64,000 nucleotides of DNA. It comes from Lineus longissimus. Its lineage: Eukaryota > Nemertea > Pilidiophora > Heteronemertea > Lineidae. Where the stretch lies: NCBI RefSeq assembly GCF_910592395.1, contig NC_088311.1, forward strand, positions 24,646,646 to 24,710,645, in the 5' to 3' direction. The translations under genes and the position numbers were made by a program. The notes below the pieces were generated by a model. It saw only the letters and a program-made list of their open reading frames with translations. It was not told the origin of the DNA and searched no databases. Below, piece after piece: positions 9,701-60,350 of this stretch. Numbering within the stretch: the first letter of the stretch is position 1; every line of letters begins with the position of its first letter.

Positions 9701-12459
9701 TGCCAGTCAAGTTGGGTGCTAATCAGGTTCATTTGCCTAGGGAAGCCCGTCTCCAGCCAGGGAGAGGAGTGCATTGAAAGCTACTGTCCTATTGAGGCCC
9801 TGACATTCTCCAGCCAGGGAGAGGAGTGCATTGAAAGCTACTGTCCTATTGAGGCCCTGACATGGGCACTAGTTAAATGGCATCTTGGTTAGCCGTTAGC
9901 CCTCCGTGGAACAAGTGTTAACTCACCTGTTTCAGATAATGGTTCCTCCACATAGGCAGCCTCAGCCTCTCCCTGAATATCACTCATATCTTCAGCAGCA
10001 CCGTTACCACAAGCACCACCAGCACCAGCACCAGCACACATAGCACCACTTTCCAATGAAATGATATCATCGTCTGGAGTCTCGGACACATTATTTTCTA
10101 AAGATAAAGTGCTCAAGTGTCTCGTCGTTTCTTCAATCACAGAATCTACAGCAGATGCTCCTGGTAATGCTACGTCTGCTTCTTCTACTTTTATGTCTGC
10201 TCCACCTCCATTCAATGTCGTTCCTGATGACTCAGCATCTTCTTTTAGCCCAGATTCCAAACCACCATCTGTTACATTCTCATCAACCTGTATTGCCCCA
10301 CCCAATTCTGGTGGATTGCTCTTGTCTCCATGGGCCCTAAACAAATCAACAGGAGTCTTATAGTAAAATCTTCTTAACCAATTTTGACTCGTGTCAGTCT
10401 CTGAAAGAGCTCATAGAATGTAATGTAATGTTTATATTTATATAGCGCTAATCAGTAAAGACTGCTCAAGCGCTTACCCTGGTCTCCACAGAAATCAATC
10501 AGGGGTTTCACGGAGCAACCAGAAGGTGCTCACTTGAGCTCGACCAGTAGGGGAACTAAGCAGTGACTGGGCCGGGAGTCAAACCCACGACCTCCTGATC
10601 ATGAGGCCGACTCTCTTCCACTGCGCTACCGCCTCAAGTTAGTACCAACAAGCAAGGCTTTAAAAGTGGTTCACCTTTCCTTGGTGTTTCAGGATGTTGA
10701 TGGCTACCATACTCAAGATAGGATTACAGTCGTACATGGAGACCGTTGTCAAACAACTTTAAGTGCAGAGTAAAACTAAAATTTAAACTAAACGTATGTG
10801 TTTATGTTCTTCATCTCAACCTACCATAACTGGTCCTTGTAAACATGGTAGAGCATGACTCCCTTTCCTCTCATGGCGCTAAGGTACATATCACTGCCCG
10901 ACATCGCTGTCTTACCAATGGCAATAGGTGCCCTGGAAAATGGAATATTCAAAAGTGAAAAATAACATCACAAATCAAGTTAGTCATTTAGCCAGAATTC
11001 TGGGCTGGATGCGATGAAAGACTGTAAAGAAAGGCCTATTGTTCCATCATGACAGCTGCCTTTGCATTTTCCTCTGCATTTCATTACTATCACTACCTGA
11101 TTCAGATGCCAGAAGACACCCAGAATTTCCAAAAATTCTATACTTGTTAGGACACTTACTTATTAGGTAGAAGATTCACTGAAGCAGGAGTTCCTTTATC
11201 CAAATGTTTGAAGGTCTCTGGAGTGACTGGACCCTTCACTATGACACCAGGAAGCATCAGATCTGAAACACACATGCATACTCGGGTAAGCCAACATTTT
11301 CAGTATGAATTATGTGTACATGTATGTTCACCCTTTGGTTTCTACTGAAAGGTTTTTGAATTTGGGAACAAATGTAAAGCGCTTAAGAAAGTGCAGTCAT
11401 ACAGTGTAGAGCCGGTAATAAGAACTTAAGCATGTATCATTAAGCAACTAAGAGTAGCATCCCCCCCGGAAAGGATGCTGGTCCAATGTAGATCACCTCA
11501 ATGGTGATAGGTGAGGTAAAAAGTATTTACCTGCTCCTTTTTGCAGACGCTGGATGACAGGCGCCCACGTTGTAAACACTGGCAAAAGATCTGGGAATTT
11601 CCACAACGTGTACACTGAAAAGAAGACAACCGTCATCATCATCATATCTTGACCACTTTATCTCACCTCAAGATAATGAAGGAAATAATACTTCTAAAGT
11701 TGGAAGCAAGTACTAATCATTTCAATTCCACTTCTTTAGTTCTAATTGCATGTGTAATCTGCTATTTCATTAACTCATGCCCACCTGTAGGATAAACCAC
11801 TCGGTCCACCTCAAAGAAGATGGGATTCTTCTTCAAAACATAAACCATGACATTATCTTCAGAGTGTGTGAAAATCTTCATCACCGACATCTCCTCTTTG
11901 TTGGGCACAAGATCACGAAGCTCATCTTCGGTCAAATCCACAAACTGACTCTTGATTTCTGCTCGGAGTTTTTTCCTGAAAGGAAAGTTTATGGTTAGGT
12001 AACAGTTCCGCTCGTGTAATCTTCAAGTCACCCATCATCATCAGTCATATCGCCAGGCTGCTCGTGACTTCATGTTGCCCTGTTGTTACACCACGACATT
12101 TCTGTACGTGGAGAGGTGGTTTTGCCTGAAACTTTAGCCTATCATCATGAGATGATGATAATGGAAGGCACGAGTCAAGATAAGATGTGCTGAGATTTGG
12201 ACAACAGACGGACAACTTTGAGCTGGGTCTGTTCAGGGCCTTTCTAGGGCTGCACATCTATTTTGTGGCAACTGGCTTGAGATTTGTGAGAGATCCTGAG
12301 ATTGAAATGTGAGATTGTGACTGTGACTGAGTTGATCTCCACTCCAGTCCATCATATCATCACATATGATGCATGCATATTCTTTCTACCCAAATAAATT
12401 CACCTGTCAGAACTTCTGATTGCTGATTGGGACTTGACTCTAAATGGCTTATGAAACAT
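6789..12459 (-). CDS. EIF2D: Eukaryotic translation initiation factor 2D (eIF2D, ligatin), complete
   Basis: Fourteen exons in transcript order: 12404-12459, 11785-11975, 11531-11614, 11160-11262, 10825-10932, 9927-10336, 9440-9557, 9110-9152, 8904-9007, 8298-8534, 8020-8106, 7735-7855, 7194-7368, 6789-6859. They total 1908 nt, giving 635 residues (human about 584). eIF2D delivers tRNA to the 40S P site without GTP and helps recycle post-termination 40S subunits. The start is ATG 12457-12459; MFIKPFRVKS followed by SDRKKLRAEI matches the conserved N-terminus. Next come the PUA region (KFPDLLPVFTTW; AIGKTAMS), a variable acidic linker (about residues 181-317, mostly the 410-nt exon), a winged-helix/SWIB-like part (KKSSYKKLSKFLQ) and the C-terminal SUI1 domain (EQFGISPKQFAHEVQ) ending in a lysine-rich tail. 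The linker is longer than in human. The gene is head-to-head with SPEF2. Confidence 0.95.
8640..8875. repeat. Interspersed repeat fragment, two diverged copies in an EIF2D intron
   Basis: Two related blocks follow one another: AGATCATGGC(T/C)(A/T)GGCCAA then an ACTCTGTAT motif, TGAAATG and a CTCCTTGGT(C/T)TCTA motif, at about 8640-8710 and 8783-8870. Between them lies TTGTAAAGCGCTTTGAGAA, a type of 3' tail often seen on invertebrate non-LTR elements or SINEs. A third relative is at 11328-11395. I infer a decayed interspersed repeat; the family cannot be named without a library search. Confidence 0.45.
9750..9863. repeat. Two-copy 57-bp tandem duplication in an EIF2D intron
   Basis: The block beginning TCTCCAGCCAGGGAGAGGAG occurs at 9750-9806 and again at 9807-9863, essentially identical. 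It lies in the intron between the acidic-linker exon and the following exon and touches no splice site. Confidence 0.85.
10417..10638 (-). mobile_element. tRNA-derived SINE
   Basis: Read on the minus strand the element starts at about 10638 with a tRNA-like head. An A-box-like TAGCGCAGTGG is followed about 35 bp later by a B-box-like GGTTTGACTCC, the spacing of an internal RNA polymerase III promoter. A tRNA-unrelated body of about 130 bp follows, then a tail AGCGCTATATAAATATA ending in ATTACATTACAT short repeats, typical of SINE 3' ends copied by a partner LINE. It sits in the EIF2D intron between 10336 and 10825, antisense to the + strand and co-directional with EIF2D. No clear target-site duplication was found. 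Confidence 0.75.
11328..11400. repeat. Third copy of the repeat seen at 8640-8875
   Basis: CCTTTGGTTTCTACTGAAAGG, then TTTTTGAA, then ATGTAAAGCGCTTAAGAAA repeats the arrangement at about 8697-8757 (CCTTGGTCTCTATAGAAAGG, TTTTTGGATG, TTGTAAAGCGCTTTGAGAA). It lies within an EIF2D intron. Confidence 0.4.
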
Positions 12460-16800: not shown

Positions 16801-19800
16801 ACTATGGTACACTGATTTCCACTGTATGTTTATTGTTGATTAACGTGTATGGGTACATTCTTTCCAGGTCTGCAACAGTAGAGATCCCAAAGCCACCTCC
16901 CAACAAGACAGCCAAGGCTATCGCTCAGAGGCGCCATTACAGGAAACTGGTCGAAGCTGAGGTAACTTAACGATGACGTGTTGATCAGTCCCTTTGTCCA
17001 TTCATCTTACAGAAAAGAAACCATTTTCACCTTCATATTGTTTCATTGTGTTTTTGTTAGGATGACACCTTCCTCAGAGCGGAATGTTGTCATTTACAGA
17101 ACCAGAATGAGAATCATGATAGTATTTGTTGACAGACATGAAAACCCTGTAGGCGCATTTTCATCAGCAGCAGATGTCAGGCTGTAGGTCTCTGGTGTAA
17201 TTTGTTATGTTAAGATTTCTGCTTCTTCTGTTTTCCCAGATGAAAAGCTTGCCATTTTATAATGATTCGTCTTTGCAGAATACAAAACAGAGTATCTGGG
17301 AATTTGAAGAGCGCATGAAAATGGTTTTACCCCCATCAAAACCCTTTGAAGAAACTGTCGGGTAAGTTTAGTTTTTGGTCCATTTTGGTTCCTGCTGCGG
17401 TTGCCCTTGGCCAATTTTGGAACTACAGTACTATTAGTAGTAGTAGTTCTTCATGAAGGTCACGTGAGAAACTGACAAACATTGTCCTGTGAAAATCACC
17501 AATGTGGGACCAAAATGAGTTTCCATGATGTTGAAGCTGTCCTATTGGCAGAGATGTCCACTGGGGGAGGTTTTACTTGAAGGGTGAATCAAACTCAGTC
17601 AAACCTCCATCAAAATATCCATTGTTATTTGAATGACTGTCTTACTTTGCGCTCCAGTGATGGTATAGTGACAACACAAGAGCCCAAAGACCCTCTTGAG
17701 TACATCAAGGTACAATCGAATGACGAGTACATCGGGAAGATCAAAAGACGTCTGCAGGAGGATGCGTCTGCCCGCGCTGAGAGAGAGAAGCGGAGGAGGA
17801 AGGTCCTGGTTGACCAGCTCAAGTCTCATGAGGCACAAGAGGTAGGCGAACATTCCACTGTTTCTAGAGTTTCTGAAGTGATCAGATTGGGATTACCATC
17901 TTGCCCGTCTTTTTATTTCAGGAGGCAAGACGAGAAGAAATGCTGGTGAACCGCTTGATGCGTCAGTCTCAACAGGAGCGTAGGATTGCCGTCCAGCTGC
18001 TGCAGACGCGACACGAGAAGGAGATCGTCAGGAGGAATCGTATCTTTCGGGAGAAGCAGTATGAGGAGAGGCGGATGAAAGACTTCGTTGATGCTCTGGA
18101 CAGAGAAGCTGTAAGTCCGACACTGGTTGTAGCATTAGATATCCTGGCTTAAGAGAGGAGTCAGGCAAGTTACTGCTTGTCTTCACTGAAGTTATTCTGC
18201 TGTTTCTAACTGTTCATACTTCATGTGTTTGCTAAGTTGCAAATTGAGGGTCAGGCCCAAGCAAATAAGCTTCAACTGGAATTCCTGCAATGTCCTTTGA
18301 TACATTTACTTAATACCGGGACATATTTGTATTTCAGGAAGTTGCTCGCTTGGCTAAGATTGAATACGAAGAGCAGACATTGAAGGACAAGGATCTACAT
18401 GATCAGATCGCGGCCGAACGGGCGCAGGCCAAGTACCAGAAACATTATGATACTTGCATGGACGTGGTTAATGATATGGTGGACTTCACAAGCAAGGTGG
18501 CTGAGTACAGGGAACTCACTGAAGAGTAGGTTGGGTTTTGATGATATCTGAAGATTGGTGAAATTAAAGGAGATACTATTTAATATCTCTGCAAGTGTGC
18601 TCTGCCTGTTGAGGACAATTCAGCAACCAGACAAGAGTAGAACTGCATGTTAATTCCTTCATTTTGTTAGCTGAAGCTGATTTCTCTCCTTGCTCTCTTT
18701 AAGGCTGATTCCTCCCAAGCTGTTCCGGGAATGGAAAGCATTGTTCACAGAAGGCAAGCCACTCTATGAAGTGCCTGCTGAAACAGAGGAGACCATGGAT
18801 GAGGTGACCCCTGAACAAGTCCTAGAGGAGGAGAGGCAGCAACTCCTTGATGAGGGAGACTTCATGGAATACAAGGTTAGGGACCGTTGTACAGGTGATC
18901 GAGATGGTTTGGTTCCTCCAAAGTTTGTCAAAAGCAGCCCGGGCTATTGCTTTCCTTCTCTTCAGGTCACCTTCGCCTGAGTCCATCATTGCTATTGCCT
19001 ACTTCATCCAATAGGCTTTTGGTTTCTCAACGAGACGTCCAATGTATGTTCCTGTGCTGATTACCTCACTTGATTGCTGAATGACAATGACTGGTTTATA
19101 TTTTTCTCCAGGAAATGATAGGAGAATGGAATCCGCCCGAAGGCAGTGAGATCACCACACCTCCAAGGAACAATCCTGTTGTTGGTCATGTCGTCCAGAG
19201 GCTATTTAACATTGTCTACCCTCCGACAGTAAGTACAATTACAATATTTCAATGACCTTGTTTACAGGCATTGATCAAGTATAGGAAAATCAAATTAGAG
19301 TATAATACAACTCATGGTCACCAAAATTCGCCATGGAGATGAAACTGTGTTACCAATTCAACCTCAGATGAGAACCCACTATATCTCATCTGTCTTCATG
19401 AGGTCTTACTAAGCTTTAGTTAATGATTGTCACAAGAAATACCAGCTCTGTTGCTGCCTAGAGGTCTAATGTCTTTCCTAATGTAAGTCACCATTATCTC
19501 CTGCAGTCATGTATAATTGTGTTCTTTCAGCCTCCCCCTCCCCCACCTGAGTTCCCTCCATTCCCAATCAAGGCGTGTGTCCTCGGGAAAGTCTTCAGTG
19601 GAAAGACGACTTGTGTCAAAGTCTTAGCTGAGAGTAAGTATTGTTGATGGAAAGTCTTCAGTGGAAAGACGACTTGTGTCAAAGTCTTAGCTGAGAGTAA
19701 GTATTGTTGATGGAAACATGCATTCTGTCCCCGATTTCTCTAATGCCACCACCCCGGTAACGCGACCATTCAACCTCGGTCCCATGAGTGGTTGTAATAC

Positions 19801-29895: not shown

Positions 29896-30338
29896 ACTAC
29901 CATTCCATTCTGCTCAAAATCTATCTAAAAATATCAACTGTCTGATGGTAATTTTTTAAATGGTTCACTAAAACACTCTTGGATATCCGTGGATATCGTC
30001 TTTTGTTAAATTATGTCAAATGTGTGACAAGTTGTTGTGAGAAACCGTCCTGTGTAACAAATTCGGCTGTCCTTCATGCCATTCCTCCAAATAATAATGA
30101 TAATTTGAAAAAATGTACAAGTCCGTCCACGAATCCCTTGACAGTATTGTTTTGTATTGTACATGGATACAGGCAGGTAGACAAAGTATGTTCAAAATCC
30201 GTCCATTATTTGTATTCAACATATTCAGAGTAAAATATTTGATTACTATATGTTTATTGAAATGAATTCCTGTACAGTCATTGTTATGTTTGAATACACA
30301 AATGAAAAACAAATTCTATTGTCTGTTGTCTGTAACAG

Positions 30339-31216
30339 TTGTCTTATTTGTCACACCACATCTGCTGGTGTCTCTGGATGATGTCTGTTGTCTTATTTGT
30401 CACACCACATCTGCTGGTGTCTCTGGATGATGTCTGTTGTCTTATGTGTCACACCACATCTGCTGGTGTCTCTGGATGATGTCTGTTGTCTTATGTGTCA
30501 CACCACATCTGGTGGTGTCTCTGGATGTTGTCTGTTGTCTTATTTGTCACACCACATCTGCTGGTGTCTCTGGAGGTTGTCTGTTGTCTTATGTGTCACA
30601 CCACATCTGCTGGTGTCTCTGGATGTTGTCTGTTGTCTTATGTGTCACACCACATCTGCTGGTGTCTCTGGATGTTGTCTGTTGTCTTATTTGTCACACC
30701 ACATCTGCTGGTGTCTCTGGATGTTGTCTGTTGTCTTATGTGTCACACCACATCTGCTGGTGTCTCTGGATGATGTCTGTTGTCTTATGTGTCACACCAC
30801 ATCTGCTGGTGTCTCTGGATGATGTCTGTTGTCTTATTTGTCACACCACATCTGCTGGTGTCTCTGGATGTTGTCTGTTGTCTTATGTGTCACACCACAC
30901 CTGCTGGTGTCTCTGGATGTTGTCTGTTGTCTTATTTGTCACACCACATCTGCTGGTGTCTCTGGATGTTGTCTGTTGTCTTATGTGTCACACCACATCT
31001 GCTGGTGTCTCTGGATGATGTCTGTTGTCTTATGTGTCACACCACATCTGCTGGTGTCTCTGGATGTTGTCTGTTGTCTTATGTGTCACACCACATCTGC
31101 TGGTGTCTCTGGATGTTGTCTGTTGTCTTATGTGTCACACCACATCTGCTGGTGTCTCTGGATGTTGTCTGTTGTCTTATTTGTCACACCACATCTGCTG
31201 GTGTCTCTGGATGTTG
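30339..31216. repeat. 49-bp minisatellite, 18 copies
   Basis: The unit starts TTGTCTTAT(T/G)TGTCACACCA and ends GTCTCTGGATG(A/T)TGTCTG. Copies start every 49 bp from 30339; the last is slightly short. Copies differ almost only at two alternating sites (TTTGTC versus TGTGTC, GATGA versus GATGT), with rare others (CTGGTGGTG, GGAGG, ACACCTG). The array begins just after the SPEF2 3' end. All three forward frames are stop-free because the unit has no stop in any frame and 49 is not a multiple of three. I treat the resulting 95-193-codon frames as spurious. Confidence 0.95.
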
Positions 31217-37157: not shown

Positions 37158-40100
37158 CTCACGAAGAAGACCGTCGCTTTATGGCTGATCAGACCTATGT
37201 CTCGGAAATGCAGGCAATTAGCGCTAATACAGTACAGGTAAGACAAGTCCAAATTCTGTTCTGCCTGTTTTATTATAAGCATCTTCAGATTTCGTAGAAT
37301 GAAATTCAATTTCATGTGATTATTTTCGAGAATGGAAATGTTAGCAGTGTTCTGTAAGTGTAATGTGCTTGCATGACATGGTGTTGGCATAGTTCCCAAA
37401 TGACATGAATCATTGAGATTTGAGGGTGTAAGTTTAATTTTATAGTGGATTAAAAAGCATTTTGCTTGTTGCATTTTATTAAGTAAGACTTGGAACAGAA
37501 AAAAATATTTTCAAAAATTTCATGTGGTCACCACAGATTGTTTCTGAGTAATGATGACGTTTATTTCAGTTAGAAATGTACATTATCTCGATTTCCTGCG
37601 CAGTGTCGTATAATTTTGTGCCTTTTGAATTTGATTACCAACTTTTGCAGTACATCTTATCTGGCACCAATGTTTGCGGTTGCTTTCAATTGACAATTTC
37701 ATTATCATTCATACAAAATATTGTGCAATGTGGTATTACAACTGTTCGTGTAGTTGTTGCCTTTTTCACAATGCAGAACTTGGTATCAACCGCACTTTGT
37801 GGGTGTATTCACTGATGTATAGCGCACAGCCAATCAGCATTGTGTATATTGTGACTTGAATTATATGTGAAGTGAACTTCACAGAAAAAATTAAATACCA
37901 GGCATGCCAACCGAGAATGACAAAAATCCCAGTCTGACTTTCAGCAGTTTCCATTAACTTACTTAGTTCTGATTTTTAAGTTTGATTTTTTTTAAACCCC
38001 CAGTTTCAGAATGCATGCTTCCTATATTTTCAGTTAGGAATAGGATAGTCATAACATTTTAGGTGTATCATACTTTTGGAGATGTTGTTCGTGGAAGTCG
38101 AATTACTTGCTGTTACAAATATATGAATTATGAATTCTGGGTTGTGTCTAATGCATGTGCCATGTTTTGCAGCAATGGGTTGGGCATGAGGTAAAATGAA
38201 GTGTTCTCTACTTAACTTATTCCACTGATAGCCTATGACTTGAGTTGGCATGACCCCTGGCTTCTCGTTCAGCAAGCACGGGTCACCTCTTGAGAGGGTG
38301 CCCCATGTTGCCTACCAAATATGTACAATAAGCTGTCAGTGTGCAGCTAAAATACATTTGATAGAAAATTGGAACAGAGTGAAAATTGCTGTTCTGATCA
38401 TGTTTGGAATTTGAAAATTTGACTTATCTTTCAATTTTCAAATGTCTTTTTAGAATATTCTTCGTAGTTCGTATGAAAAAAAATGTACATGTGGGTTGCA
38501 TGGGAACATCCTTTTAACACTCGTTTCCTCCTCGGACGCACTTTTTCTACACGAATTGTTGACATTTTTGTTTTGACTGCGCGGTAAGGCAGGCTAATGT
38601 CTTGTTGGTATAGTTGCCATGGAAATGCTACAGTAAATCACAAAGGGCCGAAGTTTTAACAATTCGTCTCCCACTTTGCCACACTTACATGGTTGCAATG
38701 GTATTATGTCATACATGTGTCATGATTGAAGTCTGTTTGTGTCAAGTCCGATTACATACAGTACATGTTCATTCAGCTGTCGGTGGATTGTACCCCAGTT
38801 TCAGTGAATGTCGTCCCCGGGGCCATGGTACTTCATACACTTACTACATTCATACCCTAAACACCCTGCTAGAATTGTCCCTCTTGGCCTCTTTATACTA
38901 ACCAACATCAGGACAACATGATTGACAAGATCAACTTGTTCTTAGAGAGCATATTGTTATTCAAAATCCTTTTGCTTGCGCCATCTTTTCCAATGGCAAT
39001 ATTTCACAAATGTAGGCCTTAGCATGGAGGGCCTGTCCTCTTTGAGACTGCTGGCAGGAAGTTTGTTCCATCTCCATGGTGACGCTGTGTGTTGGATGTT
39101 TATTTTCCTGTTAACTTTTCCAACTGAAAGACAAAGAAAAGGATGTGTCTTTTCAGCATTGGTGTAAATGATGTGGCAAAAAATGTTATTAAAAAAAATG
39201 ATATTGTGTTCTCATTGCACGTGCACTCGAGGTCTGTTTGCTGCTCCTGCCAATCTCTCCTTCAGAGTTGCACCACAACAGGGTTTCCTTCTTCTCCCAC
39301 CCCAACACTTGGACTCCTTTGAGCAATAGATGACGTCCATGTATACTTGTACATTCATTCATCATACCAAAAATAACCACCTTATCATGTATGATATTGG
39401 TGTTCCCAACATTTTTTTTCCCAGTACTCTGTTGTGCAGGAGGAAACCTTGTGAAGTTGCATGTTGTAACACCACCAGTAAAGCTCAAGTTTCAAAATTG
39501 GTGTGCATTATAAAAGTTGTGGTGTGATATAGCTGTTGTGCGTTCTGTGTTCAATCACCTTAAAATGACGAGTCGAAAGTGCAGTTTCCATGGCACTCTG
39601 CACTTGCGGACGTGTCTGCCTATCATTCTATTTTCCACGAAAGATACATTTGCATAAAGATTACAAAAATTGTCAATCTAAGAATAATTCTGATGTTTCT
39701 TTGTAGAAGATATTTATATATAGTCAAGCATGGAAAATATAACATGTCCCCCTCCAATGTAAGTCTCTCGCTGAGAGGCTTGAAGCATCAACTCAAGTCT
39801 TGGGGAAAGAAATCAGCCAATTCCATCATTTTTTTAAAATAACCATTTCTGGCAATGTAGAGTTTTTCATGTTTTCTGTTGTCAGAAACTCCAGTTCCAC
39901 TCAAAACTTGTCAATTTATTAGACAACATGAATTTCTTCGTTCTCTACGTTCTCCTGTGTTGATCAAGGTGAAAGATTCCACTCTCATCATCTGTCTTCT
40001 ATTTCAGACTACCAGTCAGTCGACTCCACAAACGACGACGCAAGTAGTCCAGAAATCCTCCAACCAATCACAGACTGCAACGATCATACAGTCGGCACAT

Positions 40101-43100
40101 TCAGGGCAGCAGTTCATTGTTACCAGTAAGTCACACTACTCCCCCTGTAACACTGGCCCTGTATTAACACTGGTGTTGAAGAAAAGGGACTGATGAGTTT
40201 GTTGTCACTCTTGCAATACTCAGAGGTGGAATTTTGTTATCTTCAAAATCCATAATGTACAACCATTTTCTGTATATTTCATGATTTTGTAATTTGTGTG
40301 AAATGTTCACATAATTGTGGCAATTGGTCAAGTGATACATGAACAGGTGTGTCATCTTCACATAAAATGATTGCACAGTTGTGGATACATAGTCTTACTA
40401 CAATACAAGTGATTGATTCCCAGTTAACTGTATTGTTAAAAAAGACCCCCTGCTAGGCATAAAGAGAGAGTGGATGTGGTAACTAATAAACACCTTCATA
40501 GAAACCAGATGTCAGAAACCTACGATTGCTTGGTGTGTGGCTGTGACGTGCATTGGGCAAAATGGACAAAGATGACGAAATGTTTAGATTATTACTGGTA
40601 CTGGTAGAGGGGCAGTGATAACTAATCTCAGAACAACGGGTACCGGTACATGTATTTGCAAATTGAGATTGAGACAAATCCCTCTGACTTACGCCACAGA
40701 TGGAATGATATCGAAAGTTCTTATTTGAAAATGCTCTTCCATCTTTCAGCAACAGTGCCTCCAGAAAATGAACAGAGTCAAGACACTGTGACCCTGCAGG
40801 CTGCTGGCCAGACAGCTGTATACCCAACTCATGTACAGTATGTAGAAAGCCCAGATTCTACCCTATATGCAGCGACAAATGGACAAATGTAAGTGAGATC
40901 TTGTCAATGAACAATGTGCCTATGAGACCACTTGTGTAAAGTGTACATGTATGATACTATGATCAGGCCACTCCAAATACATTATATGGGACGCACACTT
41001 CTTGCCTTATAATTAGGGCTTATTTTTCTGTGATTTCATCGTGCTCATGCCAAATGTCAGTCTTTCTCATAATCATGAGACTATCACTAACTTGAGGTGT
41101 GATATCTTTTCTAAAAGGTGTTCAGGAGCAGATTTGACCATTTTATTGCCAGAAAACACTTCAGGGGGGTGGCAAATACCAGAAAGAGCCAAATTAAGTT
41201 GGGCACCCCATTTAGTGCTTTAGGTGTGCACAATGTTAAAAGCGCTGTCTATTTGGTGCAATTGAGATACCTACATTGCAATGATGTTAATACTCCCTGG
41301 TACTAAGAAGAAGGAGCAGACTAAGTCTCACTTGTTCTTGCTGTGCTTCAGTAATGAGGATTTGTACTTATGTTCAAGAAGTTACTGCATGAACTTTGAC
41401 TGCGGTTAATAGTGGTACTCGAGACGGCAGAAACATGAGTGCGAAAGCGTTTTTGGCACCTCGTATTCAGGAAAATGGAGATCAGTCGATCTCAAATACA
41501 CCTCTTTAAGTCATTAGTAAGTAGGTTTCTGGTATCTGCCACATACTGTAAACTGCTAACCTAGAAGGTCACAAGCTCTTTCCAAGAAACTTAGTACAGA
41601 CAAATATTCTGAGAATGGTGTGTCCTAGGAAAAGTGCAAAGAATACTGATAAGTGCTTAGTTAAAGCTAAGAGTTGGTCATAATTTTCTGGTGTTGTGGC
41701 CATACCTTACTTGATTATCCTGATTGAAGCAACACACAGGATTATCACTGGATTTAAATCTGTAAATGCATTTGAAATAAATGTTTTTTAAAAATTGTTT
41801 TTTTCAGGCAAAACTATCCAGAATACAGTCAGACAACAATGTACACTCCTGTGGGTAGTACGTACTATCAGACGTCTGGGACCCAGGTAAGGAGGGACAA
41901 AGTCAATGAAAACAATGGTGTCAATGCCTGGAATGATGTAAGGAGATTTTAATACTTGATCAGTGTTGTTGTCGTCCATGGAAGCACATCACTCCAAGCG
42001 TACACGCATTGTTGTTATTGTTGTTGGTTAACACTTGAGAGAACGCTCATTTCTTTGGACATTCACCAGTGATTCATCAAACCCATTTTCTTGTTGGAAA
42101 ATGGAAAAGACTTCGAAAGATATTGACTTGAAATACAATGACGGCCTACTTTTACAATAGCTTATTCATGATTGCACTGAATTATTTTCTTGTTTAGACT
42201 TATGAGTGCTTTTAGTGGAGCTTCTGTTTTTGATGTCAATTATTTTGCCACTGCTGCGGCGAAGTATGCTTTGACGCTATGATATCCCACGATTGAAATT
42301 AAGATGTAATGAGTTGGTATGACCAACTTGCTTTTCCCATAAATGTTTGGTTTGATGGTTTCTTTTGAGCTGTGTCAAATTTGTAAATAAAACAATGGTT
42401 ACAGTACTCCAAACTGGTATGCTGCCTTGCTGGTAGAAAAGAAACTAACTTGCAGAAGAACTGAAAAATATCTTTCAACAGGGAAAACTGGTGGAATATT
42501 AAATGAATGGCCAATATTTTAGTCTAAAACATGTAAAAGATTAAAGTGATGCTTTCTGCTTTTTGTCAAATATATAAGTATTGTTTTACTGTAGTCTGTA
42601 CATTGTTAGATTAGGATAAATGTTGTCTTTGATGTGGTTCTGTTCTTTGGTTGCCTTTGGGTGTTCACAAACTGAATGCGTGTTATTCATTGTAATTGTT
42701 GACTTATCATGTTGTAAAATAAACTTCATAAGTCTTGGCTGTTTTCGAAATCTGTTTGAGCTGAAACTTGTCTGCATGTTATACATGCATGGTCTCTTTC
42801 TATCATTTGGTTAACTAAAGAGTCTTGAATGAAAAAAAGCTAGCTACTAAGTTTTATGACAACTTTAGAGTTTTTGTGATGACATTTTTTTTCCTTATTT
42901 TTAGTAGAAGTGAGAATATTTTCTCATTCTTTAAAAATCATTCAGTTTAAAGTTAGTTTGACGTGCTTGATTGTACATGTATGATGTGACTGTCTCATTT
43001 CAGATGAGTTCCACAGTCACCCCCATTGGCAGTGTGCAAGGCCTCCAACAACAGATCCTGACTCATTCAGGAGGCACATACTTAGTCCAAGGGGGTACTA

Positions 43101-46100
43101 TGGATGGTGAGGGACACCCCCTGACACACACCACACGAGCATCGCCTGCGACAGTAAGTTGAAAATATGAATGGTTTACCGGTATGCTTACTTCGAACTT
43201 GTGAGTAGGAGGAATCTAATAATTCATATTTGCAGGCTGGTCTAGGTGTTGTTTGAAAAAAGATTCCAAAATGACAATCACTCAGCGAAGACCAATGTGT
43301 GATTTGACAACATTTTGCAAACCATCAGTAAAGCGGTTCTAATCTTGCACTTTAAAGAGATGGCATTTAGTGATTTCTTCATTACAAAGTAACATTGGTG
43401 AATCTATTTCGTATTATGAACCTTTCCTTATTCCACCCTTATGAACGTATGAGTCTGAGCGGATTTTTTCTGTTGTGTTCTGACCTCACAGGTCCAATGG
43501 CTTTTTGACAATTTTGAAGCAACTGATGGTGTCAGCCTTCCTCGTGGCACCCTGTACAACTTGTATTTACAACACTGTGCAGAAACTAAACAGGATGCGA
43601 TGAATGCTGCATCATTTGGAAAACTGATCCGCTCAGTGTTCTTGGGCTTAAGGACCCGTCGTTTAGGGAAAAGGTAGCCAATTTCATATGTATCTTATCG
43701 TCTTTGTTTTGTGTATTGCTTTAGGTTCAGTGGTTAATTGATAATTACGAAAATGCTGAAGGAGTGAGTCTGCCCCGAAGTACCTTGTATAACCATTATC
43801 TGCGACACTGTCATGAACAAAAAATGGACCCAATGAACCCAGCATCATTTGGAAAACTTATACGCTCAGTATTTCTTGGCCTACGGACAAGGAGATTAGG
43901 CACAAGGTACTGGAGTTTTTGCTAATCAGTTGAGCTAGTGCCAGTATAGCTCTCATCAGACATGTATTAACCTCATTAACCAACCACACCCTGTTCTCGG
44001 GAATAGAACTAGCCATCACCTGTTAGGCTAACACAGGCTAACAAACCAGACCTGATCCTGACACAACCCGGGAGGAGGGCCTGCATGTATTACAGCAAAA
44101 GCTTGGCTATACTAGAAAAAGTCCACATAACCATCATATCACTTTCATGGACAGATGGCGTTATGGCTATACAAGCACAGTGAAATGACGCATCAAAATC
44201 TTGTTGAGGTCCATAGTGAGTTGGGATCCTAAGAATTTTAGGGCCTTCTCAACTTGTAGTACTTCTTCGTCGAGCAATGCAGCGCACCCAATGAAAATTG
44301 ACCAGGATGGTCCTTACTCCTTTGGTTTTCATAGTGGTCATGTTCATTGTTGCATTTGTTTTCAAAATCTTGATATATCTTGTCCATGTCAAAGTGCATG
44401 AATTATGGACTTTAGAATCTAGATGATATTGTCATGCTAGCTCTGCAGTTCCTACCCTTGTCTGATGATATGTGCCTGGCTTAGACGTCGCATTTAGCAA
44501 GCTTGTTTTTACCCTATCGCTCTCTCAGCTGCTGCTTACTCTGTCTCCCAACTCCATCATATCTCAATCTCAGACTTCTGATCTTCCTATCACCTTCATT
44601 CACTTCACAGTAGTTTTTCAACCTTTCTCTTGGTGTTAGTATTTCACTCACTTCATTTCAGCGGGGCAGCCACTGCTGCGATTTGGCCTGTGGTATGCTG
44701 TGGTCATTCCTGTTGCTGATCACTGCTGGTCAACTGGGGGCTACCCTCAAGAGTGTATGGCCGCATCATTCAAATCTAAGTTCCATATCTGTTGGTGATG
44801 CACTCAACAAATTACACAAGTTTAACTTACCAGCAGTCTCTTGGAACATTTGACTTCCCTTCAATACCACAAGCACAAAAAGCAGTAGTGGATCCCTGCA
44901 TTAGGTTGTTACATAACAGTAACACAAAATCTAAATGCAAATTTGTTTGTATTGAAATAAATTATCATAAATGTCAACACCTGCACTATCACTTGGGTTG
45001 AAGGTAAGGGGATTGTATTTCTCACCAATTGATCTGTAATCAGTTGGTAAATACTGTACAGTTCGTTCATAGTTATAACTTGAAGTAAAATAGTGACATT
45101 TTGATGTTTATGTCTTTTTAAGCAAATAGTGATGCCCTCTTTGTTGGGTCAAGAGAATTGTTTTTCTCTATTTAAAATCTCTCAAGATGCTTTGTGTTCG
45201 CAAGCCTTGCATTGTAGCCTAACCCATGACATGCAGAGGACTTCGATCAGTATGTGGCTCAGTTCAGATGTAAAAGCAGAAAAATGACTTGTCATGTAAC
45301 CTCTGTGAGAACGTTGACATGATCATCGGGAATTTAGTTATTGTTCGACGATTATCGCTTTGACCGATTATTGTTTGTTTTTAACGACCAGCTCCTTGTA
45401 TTTATGTATGTTTGCATTGCCTGGATTGACACTGCTTCTGGCTGTAATATAGAATTGGTTTCTTACACTAGCAATCTAGGGTGAAACACATTCTCGAACA
45501 TCAGTCACAAAAAATCTGTCCTTGTGCTGTTTGGAGTCTTTATGATATCACCGATTTTCTTTCGTGATTCTGATAGTTACCACCAAAATCTATCCCATAG
45601 TTTTAGCTTCTGGACACAATGATGTCACTGTCATTGAGTCCTTAACACACACGGGTTTTCCGAAACATGTAGTGTGCCTAACCAACCCTAACCTTTTGTA
45701 CATTTACCAATTTAGGAGCTCTGTTCTCCTACCCCGACCATCAATCTCAACTTAACGTGTTGCTTCATTTTTGAAACACCGTTTTCAGGGGTAATTCCAA
45801 GTATCATTATTACGGCATCCGAATCAAGGCAACATCACCACTGAATCAGTTTACTGATGATCAGACTATGGCCATGAGGCAGCAGCCAATCAGTCAAGGC
45901 AAAAGGTAATTAGAATTGATGAATTAATGAAATATTCCATTTTGACCCACCGTTTTCAGGGGTAATTCCAAGTATTATTATTACGGCATCCGAATCAAGG
46001 CAACATCTCCATTGAATCAATTTACTGATGATCAGACAATGGCCATGCGACAGCAGCCAATCAGCCAAGGCAAAAGGTAAATTTCATGCATGTTCAAAAA

Positions 46101-49100
46101 TATCTCTACATAGTTTTAGAATATTTTTGAAGTTTCAATGCTCAGTGCCTTTTAAATCTTAATTTTTATCTGTACGTGTCTGCCTATATGTCTGCATTTA
46201 TGTCCTAAACGCATGAATAAGAATTGCTGCAGTCAAGAGTCGGAAATCTTCCCATGATTTTCTTTGACTCTGTTGGATGGTCATGATGTGTATGTCCCAT
46301 GTTGTAGAGTTGTGCTCTTACTCTCAGTTGAGTTCAAGTCCACTTGAAGATTGGTAGGCTCAGTGGATTTGTGTAACAAAAGAGCAGTCTAAATGTCTAG
46401 GGTGGTTCTCTTTAATCAAACCATGATTTTCTAGAGGCCATACTGTCTGTCTTATGTTGTACATCAAAAGTATATGCAATCAAAGAATTGATCAAAAGAG
46501 GGCTGAAAAACCCTTGAAATGGAAAAGAATTCAAAAAAATGTTCTGCTTACTGTATCTGTGCCGTTTGCATATATTGTTGGAGAAGTGAAATAACAAACT
46601 TTCAGTTTATCACAGTGCCAAGATATGGCATTCATTCAGCCAGTTTATTAGCAAATTCTTTTGGCGCTTTAATCAAGCGTATTGCTTTGACTCTAATTTG
46701 ATTACAAGTGAAGGTAAATTGTAATCATTGCCGATTTGAAAACATCAGTTTTCGATTTAGTTGTCTTGCGTAAAATGTTTCCTGTACCCAATTACTGTTG
46801 TCCCCTTGACATGAGGTAAGATGTCACTTATGGAATGGAAGTGAATTCATTGTGATAGTTTGCATGTTAGATGTTGAACAATGGATGTTAAGATGTCAAC
46901 TGAAGTAAAAGTGCTTTGTCAGATCATTGTGGTCTTTGGTACCTACATGATTAAAGTTGTAGAAATGTGTAAAGAAATCATGTAAAATTCTTGTTTTTCT
47001 TAGTAATAAAGTGATTGTTTAGTATTGGGCTTGGTGTTTAAACTAAATGCTCTACCTTGACTGTTAGGTCTAAGGAACTAAAAATGAAAGAGAATATTAT
47101 AATCGGCAAAACTGAAGAAAAAAACAACATCTTATTGTGACTGTGAACGGAAAAATGGTTTCAAACGCCTTAGCAAAACAGTCACTATGAAGATAACGAT
47201 GGATTAACTGAGATGCGTGTTATGAGAATGACTTAAATCATGTGTGTCGTCTTATCAGGTTCAAACAAGCCAATTGTAAAATGGAGGGCTCGGACGGTAC
47301 AGAGAGTTCAACGACCTCGACAACTGGGTCACATGATTCCACGTCGTCACAGCAGCAGCATCAACAGTTCCTGGGCGATGCATCGGGAGCACTGCCAAAC
47401 TTCTCTGAGATTGAGCCGTGTAATCCACTCCCCGATGGCATCTCGAAGAACGACCTGAAACTGTTGGAACAAATGTACAAGGATCATTGTGAGGTGAGTG
47501 TTGCAAAGTAGGAATGACTTTATAGTTCAATTTGTGTGAGAGAAATTCGACGAAACAGGCTGAAGATTTGATGATCCTATAAAAATGTGGCAGAAATCTA
47601 TATTGGTGATGGATGATGTTGATGTATTTGTCCTTTCATGCAGTCCATGCATCACCTTGTACAGCACTCTATCATTGTGAGTATCATCATAAGATCGAAA
47701 CTCGTACCAGCATAATTCTATAGCAATTTAATCACATCTCCTTGTTGTTTCAGGCTATGTTAGATGTTGTCGTGAATCTCCAGTTCACCCTCATTGAAAA
47801 TTTGTGGAGAACATTTTGGAGGAATCCAGAGGAGCCCAATCACAAGTAAGTGTCCTTGTTCAGGCCTTTCAGTTCAATAAAGTTCACAGCAATTTACACT
47901 GTCATGAATACCCCTGTGCCAAAATTAGGGGTGGGGTCCCTCAATTATGCTCCCAAATGCCCAATGATACAATAAGAACTCATGAAAATAACTGGGCTTT
48001 TCAGACTTGTGATCTTCTGACGTTGCTTTTCTTGTGTTTCAGTGATGCGGCCATGGAGAAGCGACTAACGAAAGACAAGCTGTTCGCCATGTGTAAATAT
48101 GAACCAGTGCAGAAGTTCATCAAGAAATCTGACTATGCTTTCTATCAGTCACTGGTGGAGGTGCTCATTCCAGATGTTCTCCGACCTATTCCAAGTTCTC
48201 TCACACAAGCCATCCGTAATTTTGCTAAAAGTCTAGAAGCCTGGTTGAAGAATGCCATGGAAGACTGTCCAGAGGAAATGTACAAAACAAAGGTAAATAG
48301 TCTCTGCTGGTATCATCGGGAGAAAGAAAACTGAACTAAAACCTGGGGAGATGTCACTCTGGAGAAGGACACTTCAAAAATGAACAAAACCACTGACTGA
48401 AGATGTTGGGTGGAAATTGCCCTCATCATGATATATGATGGCAGTAATGCTGTCAGTAAACTCTTCATAGGCAAGTAAAGGTTGTGTCCCCCGCTTCTGT
48501 TTTAAACCCAAGTACTTAAGTTGTGTTCTAAGTTGATTGATTTCCTTCCAGCTCGGGGCAGTGACAGCATTCGCTCAGACGCTGAGGCGCTACACGTCAT
48601 TGAACCACTTGGCACAGGCTGCACGTGCAGTTCTACAGAACACGTCCCAGATCAATCAGATGTTGACTGATCTGAATAGAGTAGACTTTGGAAATGTACA
48701 GGTAAGCTTATCATTTCAAAGAACAAAAGCACACTTGGGATTAAGATTTGGTTTTCTTCTTTGTGCATATTCTTGAGCTTTCAGGGTGACGGTGACTGTA
48801 AAATCATGCATGTCTGCGAGGTAACCAACTCATGATTTATGTTCCAGGAACAAGCCTCTTGGGTATGTCAGTGCGACGATGGCATTGTGACGAGACTAGA
48901 ACAAGACTTCAAAAAAACACTCCAGCAGCAGAACTCCTTGGAACAGTGGGCTGTGTGGCTTGAGGGAGTTGTCAATCAGGTCCTTAAACCACACGAAGGC
49001 AGTGCCACATTTGCCAAGGCAGCTAGACAATTTCTGCTGAAGTGGTCATTTTATAGGTGAGTAAACCACACAACAGAATCATCTTAATTGCTCTTGATTG

Positions 49101-50199
49101 TAATGAAGAACTTCATGTGAAGTAGTTCATGTGATACTTCTGTGAAATTGAGCATCAGAGTGACCAGTGGACCGAAGAACTTGAGAAGTATTCTGCAGTT
49201 ACGAGTAGTGTGTTTTGTGCTTAGAAACTTCTGGGTTATGGGTGACACACATGAGTAAGTGTTGCTACCTTGAAAGTGAGACATCCTTTAGTAAGTGTTT
49301 CATGTTGTATTCCAGTTCGATGGTGATCCGTGACCTGACCCTCCGAAGCGCTGCCAGTTTTGGATCCTTCCATCTGATCCGGCTCCTTTACGACGAGTAC
49401 ATGTTTTACCTGGTGGAACACAAAGTAGCGGCAGCAACTGGAGATACACCCATTGCAGTTATGGGCGAAGTAAGACAGGTAACATTATCTTGGCCTCTAA
49501 TCTCTTGATGGTTAGTAGGTTGCAGCAGATAGGACTTAAGATGTCCTCAGTAAGAAACTATTGGGTGTGCTGGTCGCAGATGGACTTAAGATGTCCTCAG
49601 TAAGAAACTATTGGGTGTGCTGGTCGCAGATGGACTTAAGGCAGTGACACACATCTCACCCAAGCAAAGCTATAGTCATCGAATGAACTCCAGCAACAGG
49701 AGCTCTTTGGGAATGACCTTGTTACAGCCAGTTGTGGTGAAACTTGCCCTTGGACAATGAACATACCAGAATGTTGCTATTGTGATATCTCTGAACAAAT
49801 AAGAGCGATTATATATTACAACTTATGTTTTATGTATCATGCTGTAGAACCATGATTGATTATGACCTCACTTTCTTTCAGTGCATTGACTTCAGCACTC
49901 TCCTGACTATTGGTAGCATCGATAAAGTCAGTCCGCAGCCAAACACGCGCACTATCACATTGACCGGGGCTCAGGCTCTCGCCACCAGCCACATGACCAA
50001 TGCGAGTGCCGCTGTTACTTCCACTAGCAATGCCTTCCCAATGACGCTGACCACCCAAGGTTCCTTAGGATCCAATCCCGGCACTGCCACTGTCACTGTC
50101 GTAGCCACAGGGGCCAGCACTCCAGGAACAAAGACAATAGTCGTGGTGCCTGTTTCTGCAACAGACCTCCACGCCAACAAGAAGTTGAAGACAACTTAG
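37158..50199 (+). CDS. RFX: RFX1/2/3-class winged-helix transcription factor, complete CDS, with duplicated DNA-binding-domain exons
   Basis: The CDS runs from ATG 37181 (in exon 37158-37237) through 40008-40125, 40750-40888, 41808-41886, 43004-43153, one of 43492-43673 or 43725-43906, one of 45789-45905 or 45960-46076, 47259-47493, 47754-47845, 48043-48292, 48552-48701, 48848-49056, 49316-49478 and 49882-50199 (TAG). Choosing one of each pair gives 2259 nt, 752 residues (human RFX3 about 749). Landmarks are a Gln/Thr-rich activation region with [19 protein letters not shown] just before the DNA-binding domain, the domain itself at about 182-281, then the extended RFX region ([51 protein letters not shown]), which includes dimerisation. 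The RFX4/6 and RFX5/7 classes are excluded by these sequences. RFX1-3 proteins bind X-boxes and control ciliary genes. The C-terminal about 105 residues (from CIDFSTLL) are Thr/Ala-rich and not recognised. Confidence 0.95.
38613..38626 (+). promoter_or_regulatory. X-box-like site in RFX intron 2
   Basis: GTTGCCATGGAAAT matches the X-box GTTGCCATGGCAAC at 12 of 14 positions; the final C is T, so the strict RRNRAC half-site is missed by one base. Possible autoregulation is inference. Confidence 0.25.
43492..43673 (+). CDS. RFX: RFX exon 7a: divergent alternative DNA-binding-domain exon
   Basis: 182 nt between acceptor CTCACAG and donor AAAAG|GTAGCC. It encodes the domain from [13 protein letters not shown] through [15 protein letters not shown] to the recognition-helix segment and RTRRLGKR. 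Compared with exon 7b, 14 of about 61 residues differ: SLPRG for SLPRS, NLYLQHC for [14 protein letters not shown] for HEQKMDP. The segment [19 protein letters not shown] is identical. Typical RFX1-3 proteins match 7b better, so 7a is the derived copy. Confidence 0.9.
43725..43906 (+). CDS. RFX: RFX exon 7b: canonical DNA-binding-domain exon
   Basis: 182 nt, the same length and phase as 7a, 51 bp downstream of it. It encodes [13 protein letters not shown], then [15 protein letters not shown] and RTRRLGTR, matching the residues typical of RFX1/2/3. The acceptor follows a T-rich tract ending GCTTTAG; the donor is CAAG|GTACTG. Joining 7a to 7b would give stop TAA four codons after the junction. 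Confidence 0.92.
45789..45905 (+). CDS. RFX: RFX exon 8a: wing exon with KYHYYG
   Basis: 117 nt (39 codons), acceptor CGTTTTCAG, donor AAAAG|GTAATT. It encodes [13 protein letters not shown] and onward to the QQPISQGK end of the DNA-binding domain, matching the His-containing wing of human RFX1-3. Confidence 0.93.
45960..46076 (+). CDS. RFX: RFX exon 8b: duplicate wing exon with KYYYYG
   Basis: 117 nt, same phase as 8a, 54 bp downstream. It differs from 8a at eight bases: one changes His to Tyr (CAT to TAT) and the other seven are silent (TCA/TCT, CTG/TTG, CAG/CAA, ACT/ACA, AGG/CGA, AGT/AGC). Its acceptor CCGTTTTCAG is copied from 8a, but the flanking intron sequences no longer match beyond about 12 bp. 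Confidence 0.9.
49528..49640. repeat. 50-bp tandem repeat (about 2.2 copies) in the last RFX intron
   Basis: GGACTTAAGATGTCCTCAGT, then AAGAAACTATTGGGTGTGC, recurs with a 50-bp period, followed by a partial third copy (CAGATGGACTTAAG). No splice site is affected. Confidence 0.85.
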
Positions 50200-57575: not shown

Positions 57576-57582
57576 TCAGATG

Positions 57583-60045
57583 ATCAGATGGGACATCCTG
57601 TAGACAAAGTACAACTAGAGACAAACTGGGCTGGCGCAGAGACATTGGACATCTAGCTAGCAGACAACCAGGTTTTCATCACCTCACAAATAGCAGAGTC
57701 CAAGCCATGATCAGATGGGACATCCTGTAGACAAAGTACAACTAGAGACAAACTGGGCTGGCGCAGAGACATTGGACATCCAGCTAGCTGACCACAAGGT
57801 TTTCATCCCCTCAGAAACGGCAGAATCCAAGCCATGATCAGATGGGACATCCTGTAGACAAAGTACAACTAGAGACAAACTGGGCTGGCGGAGAGACATT
57901 GGACATCTAGCTAGCTGACCACAAGGTTTTCATCCCCTCAGAAACGGCGGAATCCAAGCCATGATCAGATGGGACATCCTGTAGACAAAGTACAACTAGA
58001 GACAAACTGGGCTGGCGCAGAGACATGGGACATCAAGCTAGCTGACCACAAGGTTTTCATCCCCTCACAAACGGCAGAATCCAAGCCATGATCAGATGGG
58101 ACATCCTGTAGACAAAGTACAACTAGAGACAAACTGGGCTGGCGCAGAGACATGGGGCATCTAGCTAGCTGACCACAAGGTTTTCATCCCCTCACAAACG
58201 GCAGAATCCAAGCCATGATCAGATGGGACATCCTGTAGACAAAGTACAACTAGAGACAAACTGGGCTGGCGCAGAGACATGGGACATCAAGCTAGCTGAC
58301 CACAAGGTTTTCATCACCTCACAAACGGCAGAATCCAAGCCATGATCAGATGGGACATCCTGTAGACAAAGCACAACTAGAGACAAACTGGGCTGGCGCA
58401 GAGACATGGGACATCCAGCTAGCTGACCACAAGGTTTTCATCACCTCACAAATAGCAGAGTCCAAGCCAGGATCAGATGGGACATCCTGTAGACAAAGTA
58501 CAACTAGAGACAAACTGGGCTGGCGCAGAGACATGGGACATCCAGCTAGCTGACCACAAGGTTTTCATCACCTCACAAATAGCAGAGTCCAAGCCATGAT
58601 CAGATGGGACATCCTGTAGACAAAGTACAACTAGAGACAAACTGGGCTGGCGCAGAGACATTGGACATCAAGCTAGCTGACCACAAGGTTTTCATCACCT
58701 CACAAATAGCAGAGTCCAAGCCATGATCAGATGGGACATCCTGTAGACAGAAGACAAAGCACAAATAGAGACAAACTGGGCTGGCGCAGAGACATTGGAC
58801 ATCAAGCTAGCTGACCACAAGGTTTTCATCACCTCAGAAACGGCGGAGTCCAAGCCATGATCAGATGGGACATCCTGTAGACAAAGTACAACTAGAGACA
58901 AACTGGGCTGGCGCAGAGACATGGGACATCTAGCTAGCTGACCACAAGGTTTTCATCACCTCAGAAACGGCAGAATCCAAGCCATGATCAGATGGGACAT
59001 CCTGTAGACAAAGTACAACTAGAGACAAACTGGGCTGGCGCAGAGACATTGGACATCTAGCTATCTGACCACAAGGTTTTCATCCCCTCAGAAACAGTGG
59101 AATCCAAGCCATGATCAGATGGGACATCCTGTAGACAAAGTACAACTAGAGACAAACTGGGCTGGCGCAGAGACATGGGGCATCTAGCTAGCTGACCACA
59201 AGGTTTTCATCACCTCAGAAACGGCGGAATCCAAGCCATGATCAGATGGGACATCCTGTAGACAAAGCACAACTAGAGACAAACTGGGCTGGCGCAGAGA
59301 CATTGGACATCTAGCTAGCTGACCACAAGGTTTTCATCACCTCAGAAACGGCGGAGTCCAAGCCATGATCAGATGGGACATCCTGTAGACAAAGCACAAC
59401 TAGAGACAAACTGGGCTGGCGCAGAGACATTGGACATCAAGCTAGCTGACCACAAGGTTTTCATCCCCTCAGAAACAGTGGAATCCAAGCCATGATCAGA
59501 TGGGACATCCTGTAGACAAAGTACAACTGGAGACAAACTGGGCTGGCGCAGAAACATGGGGCATCTAGCTAGCAGACAACCAGGTTTTCATCACCTCAGA
59601 AACGGCGGAATCCAAGCCATGATCAGATGGGACATCCTGTAGACAAAGTACAACTAGAGACAAACTGGGCTGGCGCAGAGACATGGGACATCAAGCTGGC
59701 AGACAACCAGGTTTTCATCACCTCACAAATAGCAGAGTCCAAGCCATGATCAGATGGGACATCCTGTAGACAGTAGACAAAGCACAAATAGAGACAAACT
59801 GGGCTGGCGCAGAGACATTGGACATCTAGCTAGCTGACCACAAGCTTTTTATCACCTCAGAAACGGCGGAGTCCAAGCCATGATCAGATGGGACATCCTG
59901 TAGACAAAGCACAAATAGAGACAAACTGGGCTGGCGCAGAGACATTGGACATCTAGCTAGCTGACCACAAGGTTTTCATCACCTCAGAAACGGCGGAGTC
60001 CAAGCCATGATTAGATGGGACATCCTGTAGACAGAGGACAACTAG
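57583..60045. repeat. 127-bp satellite/minisatellite array, about 19 copies
   Basis: The unit opens GATCAGATGGGACATCCTGT, continues AGACAAACTGGGCTGGCGCA, AGCTAGCTGACCACAAGG, TTTTCATC(A/C)CCTCA and ends GCCAT. The period is 127 bp, with two copies lengthened by an extra AGACAG/AGACAGTAG. Copies are more than 90% alike, with recurring variants (TTGGACATC versus TGGGACATC; AAACGGC versus AAATAGC) shared between non-adjacent copies. The minus strand is open for about 62 codons per unit, but 127 is not a multiple of three and no domain is seen, so these frames are taken as spurious. Confidence 0.95.
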
Positions 60046-60350
60046 AGACAACCTGCGCTGCTCAAACACATGGGGTTTCTTGCCAGCTGACTGCCGTGTT
60101 CACATTCCCTCAATGGCAGCAGATTGTAAGCCACCAGATGGGGCATCCTGAAGCTAGACAGACAACCTGCTCCTAAATGGAACAACCCAGCTCATCGACT
60201 ACTGCGTATTCATCCTCTCACAAACGAAAGGTTCTAAGCCATAATCAGATGGGACATCCTGTAGCCAAGAGACAGCCTGCGCAGAGACCTAGATAGCCGA
60301 CAGCCATGCTTGCATTCCCTCACAATGACAGATTCCAAGCCTGGATCGAC
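60046..60350. repeat. Decayed copies at the right edge of the 127-bp array
   Basis: Satellite phrases persist in diverged form: AGACAACCTGCGCTGCTC, CAGATGGGGCATCCTG, TCATCCTCTCACAAACG, CAGATGGGACATCCTGTAG, GATTCCAAGCC. Spacing remains roughly one unit, but identity falls well below that of the main array. Confidence 0.6.

Follow-up and report, generated by a model that had tools for sequence, protein, structure and literature searches.

Can a single RFX gene carry two versions of each of the exons that build its DNA-binding domain, and if it does, is the transcript obliged to choose between them? The question is raised by a window of 64,000 nucleotides (the whole stretch of DNA analysed here) from the nemertean Lineus longissimus, in which an RFX-type gene on the plus strand contains two neighboring exon pairs in place of two single exons. 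The parts of the gene that bear on the question are listed below, with positions counted from the first letter of the window.

37158..50199, plus strand: RFX1/2/3-type gene, coding exons 2-15, with the stop codon in exon 15; exon 1 was not located
43004..43153, plus strand: exon 6, ending in phase 0 ahead of the DNA-binding-domain exons (gene model)
43492..43673, plus strand: exon 7a, 182 nt, variant helices 1-3 of the RFX winged helix (open reading frame, borders, PF02257 match when joined to 8a or 8b)
43674..43724, plus strand: spacer of 51 nt, with candidate yUnAy branch points 13 and 24 nt from the 5' splice site
43725..43906, plus strand: exon 7b, 182 nt, canonical helices 1-3 (part of P0003)
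45789..45905, plus strand: exon 8a, 117 nt, canonical end of the domain, SKYHYYG (open reading frame, borders)
45906..45959, plus strand: spacer of 54 nt, with candidate yUnAy branch points 14, 22 and 40 nt from the 5' splice site
45960..46076, plus strand: exon 8b, 117 nt, variant end of the domain, SKYYYYG (part of P0003)
47259..47493, plus strand: exon 9, the common downstream exon (gene model)

The identity of the gene follows from an annotated protein. The RefSeq entry "DNA-binding protein RFX2-like isoform X3" of L. longissimus, hereafter P0003, which represents a cluster of 7 sequences in the 90%-clustered database that we searched, is letter for letter the product of the window exons with 7b and 8b and two optional segments, and this match makes the gene, by its sequence, the nemertean RFX1/2/3 orthologue and 8b an annotated exon. 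Isoform X3 includes an 18-nt microexon (QWVGHE, 38173-38190) between exons 2 and 3, and it uses a second 5' splice site of exon 5 that lies 51 nt downstream (41887-41937) and adds 17 residues. Without the optional segments the product of our gene model is 749 amino acids long, and its reading frame is open in all four combinations of an exon 7 with an exon 8. The RFX winged-helix domain (PF02257) is recognized in each of the four, at 118 bits for 7b/8a, 115 for 7b/8b, 106 for 7a/8a and 103 for 7a/8b against a cut-off of 27, and the RFX BCD domain (PF25340) lies C-terminal of it in P0003 with 395 bits. Two solved chains were matched, of which RFX1 (1DP7) is the closest. Searched with the PF02257 profile, the whole genome gave 9 matches, 2 of which are exons 7a and 7b, the 7 others sitting on contigs C5, C8, C10, C14 and C19. 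All 6 of these others that could be read, the remaining C19 match having no locus, lack a 10-residue block found in RFX1/2/3, which leaves the gene in the window as the sole RFX1/2/3-type gene found. Two minisatellites flank its coding part, one upstream of exon 2 (30338-31216, period 49, 17.9 copies) and one downstream of the stop codon (57580-60060, period 127, 19.4 copies).

The first pair, 7a and 7b, had been described in an earlier note made from the letters of this DNA, and the anatomy given there stands up to measurement. The note had two adjacent exons of equal length and phase, 51 bp apart and about 77% identical as protein; the copies are in fact 182 and 182 nt long, both start in phase 0 and are separated by 51 nt, and 46 of their 60 residues agree, with 68% identity at the DNA level (124/182). 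They are plainly homologous, a tblastn search with 7a finding 7b at E = 1e-29 and its next-best match in the window at E = 1.5. As the note also stated, 7a is open throughout, and both copies have AG/GT borders with intact splice sites. The clustering of changes that it reported is real as well: helix 1, helix 2 and their loops, in residues 1-39, contain 13 of the 14 differences (hypergeometric P = 0.011), the one remaining difference is T60K just before the wing, and residues 40-59, which hold helix 3, are identical in 7a and 7b. For the helix borders within exon 7 we assume those of the RFX1 structure. The two stops that the note had predicted are both present, since a transcript with 7a and 7b together ends after R-F-S-G at a TAA four codons into 7b, and one with neither joins exon 6 to exon 8 as G-stop, with the stop at the second codon of exon 8. 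Compared with 42 distinct exon-7 sequences (drawn from the first 120 hits, with sequences that did not fit an ungapped pattern excluded and identical ones counted once), 7b is the canonical form and 7a departs from it at three positions where the set shows no variation, Y8F, H24L and T60K.

Exon 8 turns out to be paired too. The earlier note had given both starts of this exon (45789/45960) and had not described the second tandem pair that they mark. The two copies are adjacent and homologous, equal in length and phase, with intact GT/AG borders; they are identical at 109 of 117 nt (93%), and they differ in a single residue, a His in 8a that is Tyr in 8b (H67Y). Their likeness begins 20 nt upstream of the exon, where 18 of 20 nt agree, and stops at the donor, and Tandem Repeats Finder (TRF) reports the pair as an array with a period of 171 (45769-46080). 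The histidine of the SKYxY motif is kept in 318 of the 320 motifs found among the 323 proteins listed by our searches, the two exceptions being P0003 itself and P0292. Within the 64-kb window there is no third copy of exon 7 or of exon 8.

The reading frame treats the two pairs differently. Because 117 is 39 x 3, it imposes no choice between 8a and 8b, and the frame stays open in 7b+8a+8b, in 7a+8a+8b and when exon 8 is skipped. Any exclusion between the exon 8 copies would then have to come from the spacers, and these stand out: at 51 and 54 nt they are the sole introns shorter than 146 nt among the 15 that lie between exons 2 and 15. The earlier note's remark that introns here usually exceed 100 bp is borne out for this gene, whose 13 other introns over that range are 146-2770 nt long, and its scope is confined to exons 2-15. 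A PF00501 search of the genome, meant to supply intron lengths from other genes, gave 15 matches, of which 13 are long single open frames and uninformative on this point. A minimum distance of about 50 nt between the 5' splice site and the branch point has been proposed in the passages of PMC7969005 and PMC5740500 that treat it, a threshold that is mammalian and may not hold in nemerteans. With spacers of 51 and 54 nt, a branch point inside them cannot reach that distance, and the yUnAy sequences in the spacers, motif matches that are compared here with the mammalian limit, lie at 13-40 nt. Introns of 50-60 nt are spliced in some animals, and removal of the spacers may therefore be feasible. 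The donors of the duplicated exons are also unusual, in that none of the 4 has a G at position +5, versus 10 of the 11 others (Fisher P 0.0037, a value to be read with the caution that duplicated donors are not independent). The donor of 8b, GTAAAT, is also that of exon 11, an unduplicated exon. We give no weight to a TGCATG at 46087, 11 nt past the end of 8b, since this motif already occurs 49 times on the plus strand of the window versus about 15 expected from base composition. UGCAUG is an RBFOX-type site (PMC3585155).

Taken together, the anatomy of the gene and the selection on its exons best support the mutually exclusive use that the earlier note had claimed for exon 7, a claim that had left out the exon 8 half of the arrangement. 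For 7a and 7b taken by themselves we regard exclusive use as quite probable; for the fuller reading, two consecutive mutually exclusive pairs that yield up to four DNA-binding domains, we put the probability at roughly 0.6. If the fuller reading is correct, two successive tandem exon duplications would have made both DNA-binding-domain exons into mutually exclusive pairs. In each short spacer the 5' splice site and the branch point would lie too near each other for the spliceosome to act, which would prevent a 7a-7b or an 8a-8b junction, and one copy of each pair would be chosen as a result. A transcript that nevertheless contained 7a and 7b would additionally be out of frame and probably degraded, so that nonsense-mediated decay would back up steric exclusion at exon 7, while exclusion at exon 8 would depend on the spacer by itself. 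With donors that lack a G at +5 on all four copies, the choice could fall to factors specific to a tissue or a stage. This would give up to four RFX proteins with a common recognition-helix sequence and different helices 1-2, which would differ additionally by a T-to-K change adjoining the wing (exon 7) and a His-to-Tyr change after the wing (exon 8).

The alternative that survives best shares the exon 7 part of this reading and parts from it at exon 8. It holds that only exon 7 is truly mutually exclusive and that 8a/8b is a younger, nearly neutral duplication of which either copy, or both, is used without consequence. The single residue that separates 8a from 8b fits such a view, as does a length that is a multiple of three and leaves 8a+8b open, and so do further short tandem duplications in the window (9750-9863, period 57; 19586-19716, period 63; 49525-49640, period 50), all three near-perfect, which suggest that small tandem duplications may be frequent locally. 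On the other hand, 7 of the 8 nucleotide differences between compared codons of 8a and 8b are synonymous (dS 0.38, dN 0.011, dN/dS 0.03). When changes are placed at random in exon 8, one residue change at most results in 0.085% of runs with 8 changes, but in 5.4% of runs with 4. Moreover, inclusion of both copies would insert 39 extra residues inside the domain. Both exon 8 copies are thus probably maintained by selection, with a mark of purifying selection that is weaker than for 7a/7b, and we regard the neutral view of exon 8 as possible, with the odds against it.

It may also be asked whether 7a is a dead or dying duplicate, an unused exon upstream of a working 7b. Of the annotated isoforms only X3 (P0003) could be read, and it carries 7b and 8b only; the donor of 7a is GTAGCC, and invariant positions have changed in 7a. 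A comparison of nonsynonymous with synonymous change, which the earlier note had suggested for 7a, speaks against this view: synonymous sites between 7a and 7b are saturated (pS 0.81, pN 0.18), yet the frame of 7a is open, 46 of 60 residues are retained and residues 40-59 are identical. We also simulated neutral change starting from 7b, with 5000 runs at each of three levels of divergence. An open copy that had gathered no more than 14 changes arose once at 0.25 substitutions per site and never at 0.5 or 1.0. A simpler simulation that ignores multiple hits (20000 runs) gave at most 14 residue changes in 8.8% of runs with 29 nucleotide changes and in no run with 58, the observed number of differences. 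Saturation at synonymous sites, only 14 differing residues and the outcome of the neutral simulations together indicate that 7a is very probably maintained by selection as a protein-coding exon, and a dead or dying 7a is unlikely. The changes at Y8, H24 and T60 could still reflect relaxed constraint.

Homologues speak to this point weakly. Three protein searches over different length ranges gave 2883, 257 and 300 hits. The best 120 from each, with overlaps counted once, make up a list of 323 proteins, and none of the 323 is closer to 7a than to 7b. Since clustering at 90% may hide 7a isoforms of Lineus or its near relatives, and since only the best hits are listed, this is weak evidence for the absence of 7a elsewhere. 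P0274, P0237 and P0292, the nearest to such a preference, fall 2, 6 and 7 score units short, and they look like divergent RFX domains of other animals rather than 7a orthologues. P0237 is an open frame on a 954-kb contig whose divergent exon-7-like sequence is nearly as close to 7a as to 7b. A protein of Tubulanus (P0004) is of the 7b/8a type. In Branchiostoma belcheri, the rfx3 protein P0002 contains two consecutive exon-8-like segments at residues of about 275-345, a hint that exon 8 was possibly duplicated in tandem independently there and the copies joined in annotation. P0001 and P0104 also have repeated domain pieces, perhaps annotation errors.

A further possibility is that joint inclusion or skipping of a pair serves as a regulated off-switch through nonsense-mediated decay. 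Early stops created by splicing are a known means of lowering gene output, and both 7a+7b and the skipping of exon 7 produce them. Such a switch would not by itself explain the protein-like substitution pattern of 7a, and the spacer is very short for it; as the explanation of the locus we find it quite unlikely. That the duplications are assembly artefacts, uncollapsed haplotypes in particular, is very unlikely indeed, for although 8a and 8b are 93% identical and assemblies do contain local duplications, 7a and 7b are far past haplotype distance, the likeness of 8a to 8b is bounded by the 20 nt before the exon and by the donor, the 171-nt unit is far shorter than a HiFi read, and the assembly, as its description in PMC8593623 has it, was built on HiFi long reads and purged of haplotypic duplications.

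With two successive duplications as the preferred reading, the saturated synonymous sites of 7a/7b, set against a dS of 0.38 for 8a/8b, imply that the exon 7 duplication is old and the exon 8 duplication probably younger. An older and a younger exon duplication would then coexist in one gene, each with a very short spacer intron.

What the choice of copy might do to the protein can be considered from known RFX-DNA contacts. According to the part of PMC2533330 that describes them, wing W1 goes into the major groove of the DNA and helix H3 into the minor groove, with nine contact residues. The first and the third of these are Arg by the same account, except that RFX7 has Lys at both and RFX5 at the first. 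Alignment to RFX5 places the first contact residue at R18 of exon 7. The third we take, from RFX7, to be R47, and since R18 and R47 are both unaltered in 7a, 7a should still bind DNA. Tuning would likely come from S19G next to R18, T60K adjoining the wing and, in 8b, H67Y after the wing, and the choice of copy would most likely leave binding in place and shift affinity, X-box preference or dimer contacts. The RFX DNA-binding domain changes little among the listed animals, from Hydra to vertebrates. RFX factors are described in PMC4745085, in the portion that bears on this, as running the ciliary gene programme of animals. A tentative extension, which we hold to be doubtful as it stands, would make the gene a combinatorial RFX1/2/3 with two switches, in which helices 1-2 depend on the exon 7 chosen and the end of the winged helix on the exon 8 chosen. 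The four resulting domains would differ in X-box or half-site preference and serve different cell types, ciliated ones for example, an alternative through splicing to the duplicated RFX genes that vertebrates have. In such a gene splicing would take the role that gene duplication took in vertebrates, and two versions of each half of the domain would let residues outside the recognition helix be tested for X-box tuning within one protein.

How far, then, does this arrangement depart from known systems? The domain order itself, an RFX DNA-binding domain (PF02257) followed by an RFX BCD domain (PF25340), is that of human RFX1-3, where a duplicate of either domain exon is not known to us. The earlier note's statement that it knew of no RFX gene described with this arrangement is not contradicted by our limited literature searches, which covered open-licence PMC only and found, in titles and the beginnings of abstracts, no report of RFX with mutually exclusive, alternative or duplicated exons, or of RFX in Nemertea. 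Alternative DNA-binding-domain exons in one factor are already known from other families. Exons 18A and 18B of human TCF3 (E2A) are homologous. They are alternatively spliced to give E12 and E47, with slightly different DNA-binding domains and different affinities for DNA, according to the relevant part of PMC12585103; the likeness lies in alternative DNA-binding-domain exons within one transcription-factor gene, and the difference is that TCF3 has a bHLH domain and one pair, whereas the Lineus gene has an RFX winged helix and two. Another such factor is serpent of Drosophila, also an invertebrate transcription factor, whose duplicated DNA-binding-domain exon 4A/4B is spliced in a mutually exclusive manner (PMC8844375); its 4B encodes no known motif, while both Lineus copies match the RFX domain model. 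In OGDH, a vertebrate enzyme gene, the branch points were mapped to 25-41 nt from the 5' splice site, a distance that forces a choice between exons 4a and 4b (PMC7969005), whereas those of the Lineus gene are guessed from a motif only. Two mutually exclusive sets in one gene are likewise already known, from unc-32 of C. elegans (exon sets 4a-4c and 7a-7b; PMC3585155), but unc-32 encodes a proton-pump subunit, and its two sets do not divide one DNA-binding domain into neighboring halves. Set beside these systems, and within our limited literature searches, the Lineus gene would be the first RFX case found and the sole case found in which two adjacent pairs split one DNA-binding domain between them.
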